This document shows, one piece after another, positions 11,334 to 51,687 of a stretch of DNA of 64,000 nt (its first letter is position 1; each line of letters begins with the position of its first letter). The position numbers and the translations under genes are program-made. Under the pieces are notes generated by a model. It saw only the letters and a program-made list of their open reading frames with translations, was not told where the DNA came from and ran no database searches. This stretch comes from Paenibacillus sp. FSL R7-0204 (GTDB lineage: Bacteria > Bacillota > Bacilli > Paenibacillales > Paenibacillaceae), in assembly GCF_038002225.1 (NCBI RefSeq), contig NZ_JBBOCA010000001.1, positions 7,068,001 to 7,132,000 of the forward strand, given 5' to 3'.

Positions 11334-11400
11334 TCACTCAAACCCCTTATAGATCAAGGAGCAAACAGCCTCCACATGCACCGTATGCGGGAACTGCTTT
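11334..11400 (-). pseudogene. rlmD: Displaced 3' end of rlmD
   Basis: On the minus strand this encodes FPHTVHVEAVCSLIYKGFE and a TGA stop at 11334-11336. The functional gene on the far side of the prophage ends FPHTVHVESVCSLIYKGF. This is the original gene end, cut off when the phage integrated. It has no start and is not expected to be translated. Confidence 0.9.
11344..11394. other. Left attachment site (attL)
   Basis: A 24-base block starting CCCTTATAGATCAAGG, two mismatches, then a 25-base block ending GTATGCGGGAAC, repeated at 50159-50209. Both copies code for the end of RlmD on the minus strand. The exact crossover within the identical blocks cannot be told. Confidence 0.9.
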
Positions 11401-11751: not shown

Positions 11752-11790
11752 ATGCTTGTCCCTCCTCTGCTAAAGGATATCACAAAAAAT

Positions 11791-11837
11791 ATACTGTTAC
11801 CAGTATAAAACCTTTGACTTTATGGTGGTACCAGTAT
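11791..11837. promoter_or_regulatory. Two operator-like repeats between divergent genes
   Basis: ATACTGTTACCAGTAT (11791-11806) is palindromic, and ATGGTGGTACCAGTAT (11822-11837) shares its right half. They are 31 bases apart, close to three helical turns. The second lies within the plus-strand promoter, so binding would block it. The binding protein is probably the adjacent RHH protein (inference). Confidence 0.55.
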
Positions 11838-11842
11838 ATAAT
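11814..11842 (+). promoter_or_regulatory. Near-consensus SigA promoter of the left-end cassette
   Basis: TTGACT and TATAAT are separated by exactly 17 bases. It points to the 43-codon gene that starts at 11873 and away from the RHH gene. The direction opposes the phage late genes, so expression in the lysogen is likely. Confidence 0.8.
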
Positions 11843-11872
11843 AAAGAAGAAGAGAGGAGGTGAACAAGGCAT

Positions 11873-12004
11873 ATGAAAGATTGGGCGAACTTAGCAGTCT
11901 CCGTAGTGAACTTAGCAACAGCATTAGTCCTTCTCAAGAAAGCGACTAAGGAGACAAACAAAAAAGGAACCACAAAACGCAGCCACCGCGGCAAACGTAA
12001 ATAG
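11873..12004 (+). CDS. 43-residue membrane peptide with strongly basic tail
   Basis: A small protein of unknown function. AGGAGGTGA, a full match to the 16S end, lies nine bases before the ATG, and the promoter at 11814 is about 30 bases further up. Residues 7-21 are hydrophobic (LAVSVVNLATALVLL) and could span the membrane; residues 22-43 hold about a dozen Lys or Arg. A hairpin follows the stop codon directly. The organisation resembles small prophage toxins or holin-like peptides, but no relative is recognised. It is shorter than typical holins and is on the opposite strand to the lysis genes. Confidence 0.7.
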   Translation: MKDWANLAVSVVNLATALVLLKKATKETNKKGTTKRSHRGKRK

Positions 12005-12010
12005 GTTCCC

Positions 12011-12040
12011 GGAGAGTAGGGGATAGGCCCCCTGCTCTCC
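12011..12040 (+). terminator. Hairpin after the 43-residue peptide gene
   Basis: GGAGAGTAGGGG pairs with CCCCTGCTCTCC, 12 bp with one G-U pair and a 6-nt loop. No T-run follows, so it may reduce rather than stop read-through into the next three genes, or protect the first message. Confidence 0.5.
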
Positions 12041-12105
12041 ACCCAATCATATCAAATTGGCAATTAAATAGCCAATCCCATAAGCGAGAAACGGGAGGGA
12101 TTATC

Positions 12106-12192
12106 ATGTTGAATGTAATCACATGGATCATTATCGGGGCCGCGCTGGTCGTATCTGTGGTCGCACTGATCAAGGCACAGGGGCGGCGCTAA
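12106..12192 (+). CDS. 28-residue single-span membrane peptide
   Basis: A tiny hydrophobic peptide: residues 5-23 (ITWIIIGAALVVSVVALIK) make one membrane helix and the end is AQGRR. GGGAGGG lies seven to eight bases before the ATG. Its TAA overlaps the ATG of the next gene (TAATG), which implies translational coupling. Function unknown; it could assist the downstream proteins at the membrane or simply act as a leader. Confidence 0.65.
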   Translation: MLNVITWIIIGAALVVSVVALIKAQGRR

Positions 12193-12434
12193 TGCTGCCC
12201 GCTCACGCAAGACTGGCGGAGCTGTACCACCTGCATAAAGCTGGTAAGCTCTCAGACGCTGAGGGGCCGGAGCTGCTGCAATGCCTGGCTATCAACGCCC
12301 GGTACTGCTGGGATGCGCTTAAGCTACGGCAGCTCTCCAATCAAGCCACGGCTACCCAGGATGCTGTATGGCTCACTGAGCTGCACATCCGCGAAGAGGC
12401 CCTACGCCTGACCGGGAGGGCACCGCTACTATGA
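12192..12434 (+). CDS. Small helical protein of unknown function
   Basis: An 80-residue, mostly helical soluble protein with an LAELYHLHKAGKL start and a LRLTGRAPLL end. The ATG at 12192 was chosen over an upstream in-frame start at 12123 because it overlaps the preceding stop. It in turn overlaps the next gene by ATGA, so the three genes are translationally coupled. I do not recognise the family with confidence. Confidence 0.7.
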   Translation: MLPAHARLAELYHLHKAGKLSDAEGPELLQCLAINARYCWDALKLRQLSNQATATQDAVWLTELHIREEALRLTGRAPLL

Positions 12435-12658
12435 AGCTGGAAGAGTTGCAGCCTGGGCTGACGGTGCAAATTACTGAAGGATACCATAAGGGCAAGACCG
12501 GCAAAGTGATTGCCGTGGGGACGTTTGAAGGCGGGCCCAAGCAGATTGGGGCCCTGGTGGATATTGCAGATCCAGTGTTGGTAATCGCCATGCCAGATGC
12601 GCTGGAGAAGTTGCCCGAGGAACCGGTGCCGCCAGGATGGGAAGAATTTGAGATATAA
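12431..12658 (+). CDS. Small KOW-like protein
   Basis: A 75-residue protein whose first half (VQITEGYHKGKTGKVIAVG) resembles the KOW/SH3-type barrel of ribosomal and NusG proteins. It ends with a Pro-rich PEEPVPPGWEEFEI tail. Start overlaps the preceding stop (ATGA). It is the last gene of the left-end cassette, followed by a strong hairpin at 12662. Nucleic-acid binding is an inference from the KOW-like pattern only. Confidence 0.7.
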   Translation: MKLEELQPGLTVQITEGYHKGKTGKVIAVGTFEGGPKQIGALVDIADPVLVIAMPDALEKLPEEPVPPGWEEFEI

Positions 12659-12661
12659 GCG

Positions 12662-12696
12662 TAACCCCTGCTGGCCAGTGTGGCTGTCAGGGGTTA
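12662..12696 (+). terminator. Terminator between convergent units
   Basis: TAACCCCTG and CAGGGGTTA form a perfect 9-bp outer stem with a partly paired interior. It closes the plus-strand cassette and overlaps the last codons of the minus-strand gene ending at 12687. Confidence 0.65.
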
Positions 12697-13182: not shown

Positions 13183-13815
13183 TCAATTTATTTTTCCTCT
13201 TATTTCCAGTCTCTTCACTCCATCTTCAGAAATATAATATTTTGGATTATCGTTTTCCATACGACGAATCAACTGGCCTCTTTTCGTTAAACTTTGTACA
13301 ACAGTACTTATTAAACTTGGTTCAACATTCATTTCTTTTCCAATTTGGTAATAATTCCGTCCAGGAAAGGCTTTTACGAATTCTAAGACTTCTATAGCAG
13401 ATACTTGCCCTCTTGGCCTAATCTCTCCTTGAGTCACATAATCATTTAATGTATATTTTAACTCTTTCAGACTAGAAATAACTTCTTCTTTCACACTACT
13501 CTCAATGGAAGATTCATTTACTTTGTCAATTGCTTCTTCAACAATATGCTCTGTCTCTGCCTTCGCTATGCTTTTCATAAAGTTGTCTTCATTTGTATAA
13601 TCACTAGGAGCATATAAATTTTCCGGTTTAAACCACAAAACAATAAAAAACAACAACACTAAGAGTATTGGAAAACCTATTAGAAACCAAAGAAATGTTT
13701 CTTGAAGCTTTTCAGAGAGTGAATTTATTGCAACGGTAGCAGCCACCTCTGCCAACCCAGCAAATATTGCGATAATGGTTAGCGGATTACTAACTTTCTT
13801 TATCTTATCAACCAC
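13183..13815 (-). CDS. Two-span membrane protein with winged-helix domain
   Basis: A 210-residue protein from the GTG at 13815, which has GGAGGGG seven bases upstream; a longer frame to 13857 lacks a ribosome site and would run into a terminator. Two membrane helices (about 10-30 and 39-62) precede a charged, coiled-coil-like stretch. The C-terminal 70 residues look like a MarR-type winged helix: YYQIGKEMNVEPSLISTVV, then KRGQLIRRM and a YYISEDG wing. DNA binding from the membrane is an inference. The gene is AT-rich against GC-rich neighbours and has its own terminators on both sides, so it is probably a later acquisition. Confidence 0.75.
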   Translation of the reverse strand: MVDKIKKVSNPLTIIAIFAGLAEVAATVAINSLSEKLQETFLWFLIGFPILLVLLFFIVLWFKPENLYAPSDYTNEDNFMKSIAKAETEHIVEEAIDKVNESSIESSVKEEVISSLKELKYTLNDYVTQGEIRPRGQVSAIEVLEFVKAFPGRNYYQIGKEMNVEPSLISTVVQSLTKRGQLIRRMENDNPKYYISEDGVKRLEIRGKIN

Positions 13816-13835
13816 ACTTGGCCCCTCCAGACAAA

Positions 13836-13875
13836 TAAAAATAGCCCAGTCAATCAAAAACTGACAGGGCTATTT
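13836..13875 (-). terminator. Terminator of the phage late operon
   Basis: AAATAGCCC and GGGCTATTT pair, with an inner GTCA/TGAC extension, and a T-rich tail follows on the minus strand. It lies 80 bases after the holin stop codon and closes the lysis module. Confidence 0.75.
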
Positions 13876-48923: not shown

Positions 48924-48940
48924 TAAGGAGAGTGGAAAAT

Positions 48941-50167
48941 ATGCCCTATTATGAAAAGCGCGGAGAAGCTTCATGGCGTCTCGTAGTTGAAATAGGGGAC
49001 AAACTAGATGGATCTCGCGACCGCCGTTATAAAACTGTGCGGGTATCAGACAAGGCATTGCTGAAATCTTCCCGAAAGCTTGAAGCCTATTTGAATGAGG
49101 AATTAGTTAAATTTAAAATCGAAGTGGAGGCCGGAGAGTACATTGCGCCAGAGAAGATGAATTTCAGCGCATTTGTAGGGGAATGGAGAGATAAATATGC
49201 AAAAGAACATCTGGAAGAAAAAACGATTTATACCTATGAAGTCAATTTGAGAAAACATATCATCCCAGTCTTTGGCCACCAGCGCCTTGATCAGATCAAA
49301 CCTTTGCACATCGTGACTTTTTTAAAGAAGCTTGCTGAGCCGGGAAGCCGTAAAGATGGCAAAGCTCTCTCATCGGGTAGCATTCAGATTAATCATCGGG
49401 TGCTGAAGAACATCTTTAAACGTGCTGTTGAGTGGAAAGTAATAAAGGAGAATCCAGCCGCTGCCGTACAAAAGCCAAAAGTCACAAGCAAGCAGAATAC
49501 CCCCTACAATGAGCAGGAGGTAGGGCAGCTTCTTCAGGCGCTTCAAAAGGAACCTTTTCATTGGCGTATGATGATAACGTTGGCTATCACCACTGGCCTT
49601 AGACGCGGGGAACTACTAGGACTGGAATGGAAACATATTGACTTTAAAACAGGCATTATTAGCGTAGAGCAAAGTGTTGCTCTCTCACCAAAGGGGAACG
49701 CTCATGTAAAGGCCCCAAAGACTAAAGGATCTCGGCGTAAAGTATCTTTGCCTGCTGTCGTTCTGGAAGAGCTAAAAGAGTATTCAAAGTACCAGGCTAA
49801 AGAACGTGATCGGAATGAAGTCATTTGGGAGGGCGGAGAACGGAAGTTTCTCTTCTGTCATCTGAACGGAAAAGCCTATCATCAGGAGCGGCCATATCTT
49901 TGGTTCCGTCAATTCCTCCAAAAGAATGGCTTCCGTTATATTCGCTTCCATGATCTTCGACATACCTCGGCCACGCTGCTGATCAACCAGGGCGTTCATG
50001 CCAAGATCATTTCGGAACGACTGGGACACGGTAACATCTCCACCACTATGAACGTTTATGGCCATGCCCTTCAAAGTGCAGACCAAGCTGCCGCAGACAA
50101 ATTCGATTCTTTACTTCGCCCCCAGTCTGCCCCCAATACCGTTTCCGGTACTCAAAAACCCTTATAG
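48941..50167 (+). CDS. int: Tyrosine recombinase (phage integrase)
   Basis: A 408-residue integrase. The N-terminus is an AP2-like arm-binding domain, followed by a SAM-like core-binding domain (about 65-165) and the catalytic domain. Catalytic residues: Arg in TTGLRRGELLG, HDLRH with His and Arg, a later GHGN, and Tyr in MNVYGHAL. ATG 48941 is preferred to GTG 48932 because AAGGAG overlaps the latter. The stop codon lies inside the attachment core, and the last codons overlap the end of rlmD on the other strand. Confidence 0.93.
   Translation: MPYYEKRGEASWRLVVEIGDKLDGSRDRRYKTVRVSDKALLKSSRKLEAYLNEELVKFKIEVEAGEYIAPEKMNFSAFVGEWRDKYAKEHLEEKTIYTYEVNLRKHIIPVFGHQRLDQIKPLHIVTFLKKLAEPGSRKDGKALSSGSIQINHRVLKNIFKRAVEWKVIKENPAAAVQKPKVTSKQNTPYNEQEVGQLLQALQKEPFHWRMMITLAITTGLRRGELLGLEWKHIDFKTGIISVEQSVALSPKGNAHVKAPKTKGSRRKVSLPAVVLEELKEYSKYQAKERDRNEVIWEGGERKFLFCHLNGKAYHQERPYLWFRQFLQKNGFRYIRFHDLRHTSATLLINQGVHAKIISERLGHGNISTTMNVYGHALQSADQAAADKFDSLLRPQSAPNTVSGTQKPL
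50117..50137 (+). promoter_or_regulatory. Tandem repeats beside attR, possible integrase arm sites
   Basis: CGCCCCCAGTC then TGCCCCCAAT with an 11-base period, inside the integrase coding end. They match the pair at 11507-11527. In attP they flank the core on opposite sides in the same orientation. Confidence 0.4.
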
Positions 50168-51687
50168 ATCAAGGAGCAAACACTCTCCACATGCACCGTA
50201 TGCGGGAACATATCCACCGGCGTAACCTCCACCGCCCGGTATCCCCCATCCTCCAGCACCCGCAAATCGCGGGCAAGGGTGGATGGATTGCATGACACGT
50301 ACACGACACGCTCCGGCTGCATCAGCAGGATGGTCTCCAGCAGGCGCGGGTCGCAGCCCTTGCGCGGCGGATCGACGACGATGACGTCCGGGGTGATGCC
50401 CTGCTCTTTCCAAGCGGGGATGACATCCTCCGAAGCGCCGACTTCGAATTTCACGTTATTCATTCCGTTCAGCTTCGCATTAGCGCGGGCGTCCTCAATG
50501 GCTTCGGGCACGATCTCAACACCATACACCTGATCCGCATGCTGAGCCAGGAAAAGTGAGATGGTGCCGATGCCGCAGTAGGCATCAATCACGGTTTCCT
50601 TGCCGGTGAGTGCAGCGTATTCCAGCGTTCTTCCATACAGCACCTCGGTCTGCGCCGGGTTCACCTGGTAGAAGGAACGCGCAGAGATGGCGAACTGTAC
50701 ATCTCCAATGTAGTCATAGATCACCTCGCTGCCCCAGAGGACACGGGTATCGTTGCCGAAGATGACATTGGTCCGCTGCGTGTTGATATTCTGGCAGATG
50801 CTGACCACTGCCGGAAGCTGCTCACGGATACTGCCGATCCAAGCATCCAGATGCGGGATATCCCTGCCGTTCGTGACCAGCACCAGCATCATCTGGCCGG
50901 TGCGGAACGCCTTCTTCACCACAACGTGGCGGAGCAGGCCACGGCCGGTCTCTTCGTTGTAGGCGGTGATACCCAGCTCGCGGCCGAGGCTCTTGACGGC
51001 GGCAACAACCTTGTCGTTGTCCTCATGCTGGATCAGACAGGTCTCCATGTCGATGATCCGGTGACTGCCCCGTGCATAAAAGCCGCCGACCAACCCGCCT
51101 TCGGTCACCCCGATAGGCACCTGGGCCTTGTTGCGGTAACGCCAGGGCTCGTCCATGCCGAGCGTAGGCAGCACGCGGATGCCTTCGCCTTGAGTCCCTG
51201 ATGTACCCACTACACCTCTGCTAACCGCACCGGCCACCTCCAGCTTCCCGATCCGCAGCAGGTTGTCCACCACCAGCTGCCGCTTCCACGCGAGCTGCGC
51301 GGTGTAATCCATATGCTGCAGCTGACAGCCGCCGCATTGATCATAAATAGGGCAGGGCGGCGCGATGCGGTCGGGGCTGGCCTGCACCAGCTCCAGCAGC
51401 TTGGCGTAGCCATACTGCTTCTTGGTCTTCAATACTCTGGCCCGGACCTTCTCACCGGGGAGTGCGCCCTGCACAAAAAGGGTAAAGCCTTCGACGCGGC
51501 CTACCCCTTCTCCTTCATGGGTCATGCCGATAATATCGAGCAGGACCTCATCGTTCTTATTCACCGGCAGTCCGGCGACAGGGGCCGCCCCTTGTTCCCG
51601 GCGGCTTGCGCTGCGCCTGCTGCGTTGTTTATTCATGTGTATAGGTTCACTTCTTTCATGTTCTTCACTATTCATCTCATTAATCAT
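50152..51687 (-). CDS. rlmD: 23S rRNA (uracil-C5)-methyltransferase, RlmD/RlmCD type
   Basis: A 511-residue SAM-dependent rRNA methyltransferase. A basic N-terminus is followed by a TRAM domain (about 43-102) and Cys 112, 118 and 121 for a 4Fe-4S cluster (CPIYDQCGGC). The Rossmann domain has DAYCGIGTISLFLA and VDPPRKGC, and the catalytic Cys 466 is in VSCNPSTLARD. The prophage supplies the last codons, ending KGF instead of the native KGFE, so the enzyme should be intact. The true start may be Met 18. Beside dagK, as in other Bacillales. Confidence 0.93.
   Translation of the reverse strand: MINEMNSEEHERSEPIHMNKQRSRRSASRREQGAAPVAGLPVNKNDEVLLDIIGMTHEGEGVGRVEGFTLFVQGALPGEKVRARVLKTKKQYGYAKLLELVQASPDRIAPPCPIYDQCGGCQLQHMDYTAQLAWKRQLVVDNLLRIGKLEVAGAVSRGVVGTSGTQGEGIRVLPTLGMDEPWRYRNKAQVPIGVTEGGLVGGFYARGSHRIIDMETCLIQHEDNDKVVAAVKSLGRELGITAYNEETGRGLLRHVVVKKAFRTGQMMLVLVTNGRDIPHLDAWIGSIREQLPAVVSICQNINTQRTNVIFGNDTRVLWGSEVIYDYIGDVQFAISARSFYQVNPAQTEVLYGRTLEYAALTGKETVIDAYCGIGTISLFLAQHADQVYGVEIVPEAIEDARANAKLNGMNNVKFEVGASEDVIPAWKEQGITPDVIVVDPPRKGCDPRLLETILLMQPERVVYVSCNPSTLARDLRVLEDGGYRAVEVTPVDMFPHTVHVESVCSLIYKGF
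50159..50209. other. Right attachment site (attR)
   Basis: Second copy of the 51-bp near-repeat described for attL, with only two mismatches. It holds the integrase TAG and the coding sequence for the last residues of RlmD, including the HVE motif with the likely catalytic Glu. Confidence 0.9.

Follow-up and report, generated by a model that had tools for sequence, protein, structure and literature searches.

The closest described systems to the locus analyzed here are small toxin-antitoxin loci of Bacillus subtilis, above all yonT-yoyJ/SR6 of SPbeta. SR6 is a 100-nt RNA expressed from a promoter with an extended -10 element; it overlaps the 3' end of yonT by approximately 65 nt and yoyJ by 30-40 nt, its 5' end was mapped experimentally, and it promotes the decay of yonT mRNA by RNase III (PMC5848175). 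Very complementary Shine-Dalgarno (SD) sequences were described for B. subtilis yonT and txpA, and txpA/bsrG-like systems were mentioned for a Paenibacillus species (PMC6562991). In a comparison of 48 Paenibacillus larvae phages, a putative holin-like toxin adjoins an Arc-like DNA-binding protein in a table column, and the word antisense does not occur in that article (PMC6070908). Single genes of this kind were therefore noticed before. Among the papers listed by a full-text literature search, no title or abstract described such a system in Paenibacillus phages.

In the present study, we analyzed a window of 64,000 nucleotides from Paenibacillus sp. FSL R7-0204. The window contains a prophage between approximately 11.35 and 50.2 kb, whose integrase is encoded at the far end. 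From its layout, we consider it likely that a module at the near end is a prophage-borne type I toxin-antitoxin system of the yonT/SR6 kind that forms a new family, in which the membrane peptide P43 is the putative toxin. The features are summarized in Table 1. The first-pass annotation had described four small plus-strand genes behind a TTGACT-17-TATAAT promoter and a full SD sequence, located next to attL and beside a divergent ribbon-helix-helix (RHH) gene with two operator-like repeats. The present analysis recovered all of these elements, namely P43, P28, and proteins of 80 and 75 residues, together with the promoter, the SD sequence, and the repeats, one of which overlaps the -10 element. 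The position next to attL, which lies approximately 420 bp upstream of the operon promoter, was borne out by the exact 25-bp repeat and the integrase beside attR. However, a predicted antisense RNA gene nested within the P43 mRNA had been overlooked.

Table 1. Features of the module and its prophage (positions in the window).
Feature	Positions	Strand	Basis or remark
attL / attR, near-identical repeat	~11345-11394 and 50160-50209		identical across 25 bp
Divergent RHH (Arc-like) regulator, 68 aa	11545-11751	-	PHROG 13890, E 2.9e-18
Operator-like palindrome TATACTG-TTAC-CAGTATA	11790-11807		sequence
Operator-like 10-mer TACCAGTATA	11798-11807 and 11829-11838		second copy overlaps -10
Predicted sigma-A promoter of the P43 operon, TTGACT-17-TATAAT	11814-11842	+	11/12 consensus matches
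Shine-Dalgarno AGGAGGTGA	11855-11863	+	precedes ATG 11873
P43, 43 residues, one membrane helix and basic tail	11873-12004	+	ORF, conservation
Predicted antisense RNA gene, start ~12039, end ~11958	11956-12039	-	sequence, hairpins, conservation
U-tract	11965-11956	-	complement of P43 lysine AAA codons
Terminator hairpin	12009-11966	-	5-nt hypervariable loop; covariation
SL1, GC-rich stem-loop	~12039-12010	-	folding
Predicted antisense promoter, TTGGCT (12075-12070), 18 nt, TATGAT (12051-12046)	12046-12075	-	TG extension 12054-12053
P28, second single-helix membrane peptide, basic end	12106-12192	+	conservation
Cargo DUF7667 protein, 80 aa	12192-12434	+	PF24704, E 5.2e-24
Cargo KOW-like protein, 75 aa	12431-12658	+	KOW, E 0.011, below cut-off
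GC hairpin behind the operon	~12663-12696		sequence reading; absent from the list of the terminator scan
Tyrosine integrase	48932-50167		adjoins attR

DNA similarity searches with this region gave matches in 22/100 genomes of the genus, and the most widely shared stretch is not a gene; it covers approximately 100 bp around the end of P43 and stands before differing cargo genes. Its minus strand carries the predicted antisense RNA gene, in which a variable GC-rich stem-loop (SL1) is followed by GGAACC...GGTTCC with an inner hairpin and a U-tract. Collapsing 66 finds on identical element sequence gave 43 distinct copies, which had been picked by a pattern and a regular expression with hairpin parts, and their invariant pairs are partly built in. 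The minus-strand extended -10 TGnTAn(G/A)AT was present in 43/43 copies, with T-R ahead of the TG in 41 (the window copy is one of the two without it), and the -35 was poorly conserved. The predicted RNA is 72-88 nt long across copies if it starts 5-6 nt after the -10, as was assumed. SL1 beat dinucleotide shuffles in all 43 copies (each z below -1.5, mean -3.9). A search of Rfam 15 gave no family at gathering score in the window and two chance-level matches in the cassette.

Covariation supported the terminator hairpin. A covariance model built from these copies found 41 matches in 45 loci, some of which fail the search expressions; in these related, model-aligned sequences, both-sided changes occurred in 7/12 pairs with 97.7% of cells paired, and 0/500 shuffles reached the observed values. 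The first alignment (A2) was informative for the third inner pair alone, which showed 13 both-sided changes, as the search expressions had fixed the outer stem and most of the inner one. Without its outermost pair, the hairpin contained 20 G-U wobbles on the minus strand (A-C on the plus strand) versus 3 unpaired cells, as expected if it was selected as a minus-strand RNA. The wobbles of SL1 leaned to the plus strand (45 versus 25 read as minus), and, thus, SL1 does not identify the minus strand as the selected one. The sequence is accordingly read as an antisense gene that has its own promoter and terminator and is complementary to the putative toxin mRNA, as in type I systems.

P43 has the properties of a small hydrophobic toxin with a membrane helix in 35/43 copies, which have a start with an SD sequence and a hydrophobic window >1.2 in frame with the KGT codons. 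In the alignment of these 35 proteins (32-46 aa), the membrane part showed a pS of 0.675 versus a pN of 0.261 and is under protein selection. The corresponding values for P28 were 0.724 and 0.348 (35 copies). Conservation of the small frames as coding sequence, which the first-pass annotation had set as a test, was thus found for both peptides. The tail codons of P43 differed, with a pS of only 0.186. This value is partly built in because the expressions used to choose the copies contain GGA, ACC, and the end of CGT from the tail. In 16 further copies that fail the expression and were found by a model trained on the other copies, GGA was present in 14, ACC in 13, and CGT, as the final arginine codon of the motif, in 15. 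It is thus probable that the peptide tail and the antisense RNA use the same bases. A P43 profile search revealed 108 homologues; most of the named ones are called "hypothetical", three have holin in the source name, and the named sources are Paenibacillus or its phages, with one cluster also listing Bacillus cereus. No Pfam family fits P43 in the window copy or six other members scanned. A similarity of P43 to PSMbeta (E 0.046) was dropped because it was absent in the six other members.

The antisense RNA gene was searched for in genomes with a model of it (R1). R1 matched 54/394 genomes of the same family (Paenibacillaceae), in 8/19 genera, and 6/398 genomes drawn from the class. Two of the latter were outside the family (L125 and L126), with E-values of 1.8e-5 and 8.6e-4 in one genome each; by number, the second match could be due to chance. 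Both contain a frame with a hydrophobic stretch and a basic tail as well as a minus-strand extended -10. The pattern occurred in 29 stretches of named genome records, of which 19 were from Paenibacillus; the other 10 lacked the rest of the element, and their number is close to that expected by chance. A search of phage records with the cassette DNA and a tblastn search of phages with the P43 of the window gave no match. However, a relative of P43 as the query matched 17 P. larvae phage records. In Lily (L157), the module is located between DNA-binding genes and the holin-endolysin side and adjoins an Xre-like gene; in Yyerffej (L158), its neighbor is a Cro/C1 gene and the integrase is close by. 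LILY_36 and YERFFEJ_30, which are annotated as hypothetical, encode homologues of P43, and each is accompanied by the complete antisense element and followed by a P28-like frame. With these results, Paenibacillus phages, those of P. larvae among them, gain a large family of probable type I toxin-antitoxin loci.

In 15/22 IMG/VR contigs with the pattern, the latter was within 2.5 kb of an end, against 3.0 expected if its position was uniform, and transcription would run inward in 12 of these 15. Opposite-strand proteins behind the module (88 of 115 listed frames were scanned) most often matched two holin PHROG families, with 5 members each; several endolysin families had up to 4 members each, and many proteins were unmatched. 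In the window, a 224-residue protein with a membrane-like N-terminus and weak MarR-like C-terminal matches is encoded between the cassette and the holin (13183-13857).

We also noted two sets of sequence-unrelated loci with a layout similar to that of the P43 module. In L011, L016, and L017 (and L015 by eye), a membrane peptide with a basic N-terminus is followed by a minus-strand TGTTATAAT and hairpins, and a different P28-like peptide is present in L011, L016, and L017; in L016 and L017, the minus terminator has only a weak T-tail. The third set, read by eye at 1350-1900 of L174, consists of a short membrane peptide, a minus-strand promoter-like TTTACA-17-TATGAT, hairpins, and a P28-like frame downstream.

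P28-like peptides were found in 36/43 copies, comprising 33 of the 35 in which the P43 frame is continuous and 3 of the 8 in which it is not. An interrupted P43 and an absent P28 are linked (Fisher p 0.001, with relatedness ignored). In contrast, the two soluble genes are not part of the core. DUF7667 was dropped as a core component because it is far more common in the 100 genus genomes than the RNA gene (95 listed matches in 60 genomes versus 22 places in 18). No paper on DUF7667 was found in the literature search. The KOW-like protein had 27 further homologues, with no function attached; those with a named organism were all from Paenibacillus. PADLOC on 60 cargo proteins (58 of 72 listed frames and two from the window) yielded three families, each matched by a single protein at best E-values of 2.4e-4 to 7.3e-4, none of which was convincing. 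Of the four-gene unit proposed previously, P43 and P28 recur together with the antisense RNA, whereas the two soluble genes represent one cargo set among many.

The regulatory region is similarly modular. Counts of promoter-like sites in the region were at chance level (2 versus 1.1 in shuffles), and the promoter-terminator scan was dropped as stand-alone proof. The longest complement to the anti-SD had a median of 8 nt over 40 copies and reached 13 nt in six; therefore, strong SD complementarity is a variable trait among copies. In four copies with a shorter SD (L014, L018, L022, and L025), a GGAAG...CTTCC inverted repeat is located just 5' of the SD, upstream of P43, and may be a second translational control. 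The RHH protein is a probable repressor of the P43 promoter. Its Arc-like PHROG matches were weaker than that listed in Table 1, and Pfam RHH, TacA, and NikA appeared below the cut-off only. Similar repeats were read by eye in the same position in L007, L015, and L023. Small DNA-binding genes adjoin most of the other copies examined. However, of 30 upstream neighbor proteins scanned (29 of 97 frames and that of the window, picked by position and orientation), 18 matched Pfam HTH_26 and 3 RHH_1; the RHH type of the window is common to five other copies by alignment. Control of the promoter by RHH is supported at the level of sequence in the window, but the divergent repressor is exchangeable, being more often of the Cro/C1 HTH type elsewhere. 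The closing terminator was the weakest point of the first-pass annotation: the GC hairpin was seen and is a possible operon terminator, but the terminator scan did not list it. The convergent lysis-side genes lie beyond it.

In 8/43 copies, P43 is interrupted, frame-shifted, or non-hydrophobic, and the RNA promoter and hairpins are retained. Draft-assembly errors may underlie single broken frames, and a shifted tail need not equal a loss of function. Since the 43 copies were found via the RNA gene, the reverse case of P43 without the RNA was sought separately. A search of the 100 genus genomes with a P43 profile, which includes the RNA-overlapping tail and is not independent of the RNA gene, gave 21 places, 19 of which overlapped an R1 match; two of the 19 (L108 and L109) have a truncated RNA without a promoter. 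L174 has an unrelated minus promoter, hairpin, and terminator of its own, which were recognized by eye and missed by the promoter expression of the script, and the match in L176 looks like chance. Three R1 places in these genomes had no P43 match. In four copies (L003, L019, L020, and L031), P28 is absent, one cargo gene is common, and the RNA gene persists; the flanking DNA is common to three of them, with L031 as the exception. P43 fails in three of the four, and the frame is continuous in L003, which is a second copy within the genome of the window. We regard these four as probably grounded remnants.

The first-pass annotation suggested an exclusion, defense, or toxin-type module, and the toxin branch is best supported by the layout, the nested antisense RNA, and the pattern of decay. 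We consider it unlikely that the membrane peptides are instead an exclusion or lysis-timing device, acting through membrane occupancy or depolarization against a second phage or as a holin modulator, with the antisense RNA merely tuning the dose and killing not being the point. Lysis genes and the attachment site are nearby, three homologues have holin in their source names, and the promoter and SD sequence of the window are strong, all of which is consistent with such a device. However, the module is convergent to the late operon and not part of it, and a broken P43 with a retained RNA better fits relief from a toxin.

The two remaining explanations concern control of the cargo. An attenuator or riboswitch-like leader on the sense strand, for which P43 is a leader peptide, would account for the location of the element between the promoter and cargo, the good folding of the plus strand (z -4.41), and the plus-leaning wobbles of SL1; nevertheless, we rejected it as very improbable because the U-tract and the conserved promoter are both on the minus strand, the wobbles of the terminator hairpin are biased to that strand, and protein selection runs along the P43 membrane helix. 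We give slightly less credence still to an antisense RNA that chiefly controls the cargo operon by message cleavage or early termination, with P43 being non-toxic. The RNA is upstream of variable cargo, but this explanation does not account for the protein selection on P43, for its interruption with the RNA retained, or for the concurrent lack of P28.

For the type I system that we favor, the following mechanism may be envisioned. The P43 mRNA would start at approximately 11849, from a promoter repressed by the divergent RHH protein, and P43 would be a small toxin that inserts into the membrane. The opposite-strand promoter would produce an antisense RNA of approximately 80 nt that terminates inside the P43 gene and is complementary to approximately the last 15 codons of P43 and 35 nt beyond. 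Pairing may begin at the loops of SL1 and of the terminator hairpin (5 nt), and RNase III would then cut the duplex, silencing P43 and perhaps also the polycistronic message behind it. P28, whose conservation accompanies that of P43, probably acts as a partner or as a second weak toxin, and the soluble genes between or after P43 and P28 would be interchangeable cargo.

The 5-nt terminator loop is hypervariable, with 29 distinct versions in 42 copies, and its rate of change exceeds that of synonymous sites. Among 9 pairs with a 5-10% DNA difference in the membrane part, the loop differed by 0.58 per site; the sampled hairpin scaffold was unchanged in these pairs, although the search expression determines most of it. 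The pooled membrane part of 12 non-overlapping sister pairs had a pS of 0.338 and pN of 0.060, whereas the two loop codons had a pN of 0.566 and pS of 0.756 (loop pN versus membrane pS, one-sided Fisher p 0.004). Since collapsing copies on an identical element may favor differing loops, we recounted without collapse: 36/55 loop sites differed in 11 sister pairs, against a membrane pS of 0.312, and the loop was identical in 1/11 pairs. That pN and pS are both high suggests that selection or mutation acts on the nucleic acid, and recombination or a hidden constraint on synonymous sites may also have produced the signal. The loops of coexisting copies were compared in 9 genomes, in which several elements were missed by the search expression; one pair was identical. 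We tentatively speculate, with more doubt than confidence, that diversifying selection acts on the loop as an identity tag of the RNA, such that the antitoxin best recognizes the toxin mRNA of its own prophage. If so, a differently tagged phage would escape the resident RNA, and the module would serve to tell self from non-self when phages compete, instead of being a simple addiction module. The hypervariable loop makes discrimination between related phages by a type I antitoxin directly testable.

The module resembles several known systems. txpA/RatA, bsrG/SR4, and bsrE/SR5 are also prophage type I loci with small membrane toxins and antisense RNAs that bind the 3' end of the toxin mRNA; however, their antitoxins are longer, at 163-222 nt (PMC6562991). 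The putative holin-like toxins of Hol_Tox (PF16935) are similar in size, single hydrophobic helix, and basic end. Neither P43 nor P28 of the window matched this family, and the curated cut-off was reached by 0/19 P28 members, one of which matched weakly (E 0.0014, 18.9 bits versus a cut-off of 23.3).

The similarity to yonT-yoyJ/SR6 is one of architecture. P43 and YonT showed no sequence similarity (hhalign probability 1.3%, BLASTP E 0.56) and are not alignable; therefore, we do not claim membership of one family, only that the module would work like yonT/SR6. R1 matched SR6 in the right place, but with chance-level E-values (1.1 in SPBc2 and 0.68 in phi3T). A possible bridge between YonT and P43 is L125 (~1417-1620), from another family of the class, which encodes a YonT-like toxin (BLASTP E 0.001 in a single comparison), an antisense element (R1, 37.8 bits), and a downstream frame with hydrophobic stretches. 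When SPBc2 was read in the same manner as the present copies, a minus-strand TGTTATAAT and a first hairpin were followed by a terminator whose U-tract is complementary to lysine codons of YonT; phi3T showed a minus-strand extended -10, a first hairpin, and a terminator. This reading agrees with SR6, the 5' end of which was mapped experimentally. Compared with SPBc2, yonT of phi3T (L181, 15921-16130) is frame-shifted and lacks the basic tail, and the SR6 region is kept.

Both systems are prophage-borne and appear to combine a polycistronic toxin mRNA, a second membrane protein downstream, and an antisense RNA that has an extended -10, is nested at the 3' end of the toxin gene, and has its terminator inside the basic-tail codons, as a side-by-side reading with SPBc2 and phi3T revealed. 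SR6 extends over 30-40 nt at the 5' end of yoyJ, whereas the RNA of the present module has its predicted start upstream of the following gene. Moreover, P28 has 28 aa and one helix, whereas YoyJ has 83 aa and two helices (PMC6562991). The divergent, exchangeable, promoter-overlapping repressor, the cargo slot, and the position at attL are features of the present module relative to yonT/SR6. An antitoxin terminator that doubles as toxin codons in such dissimilar loci suggests the convergence or deep divergence of one design.
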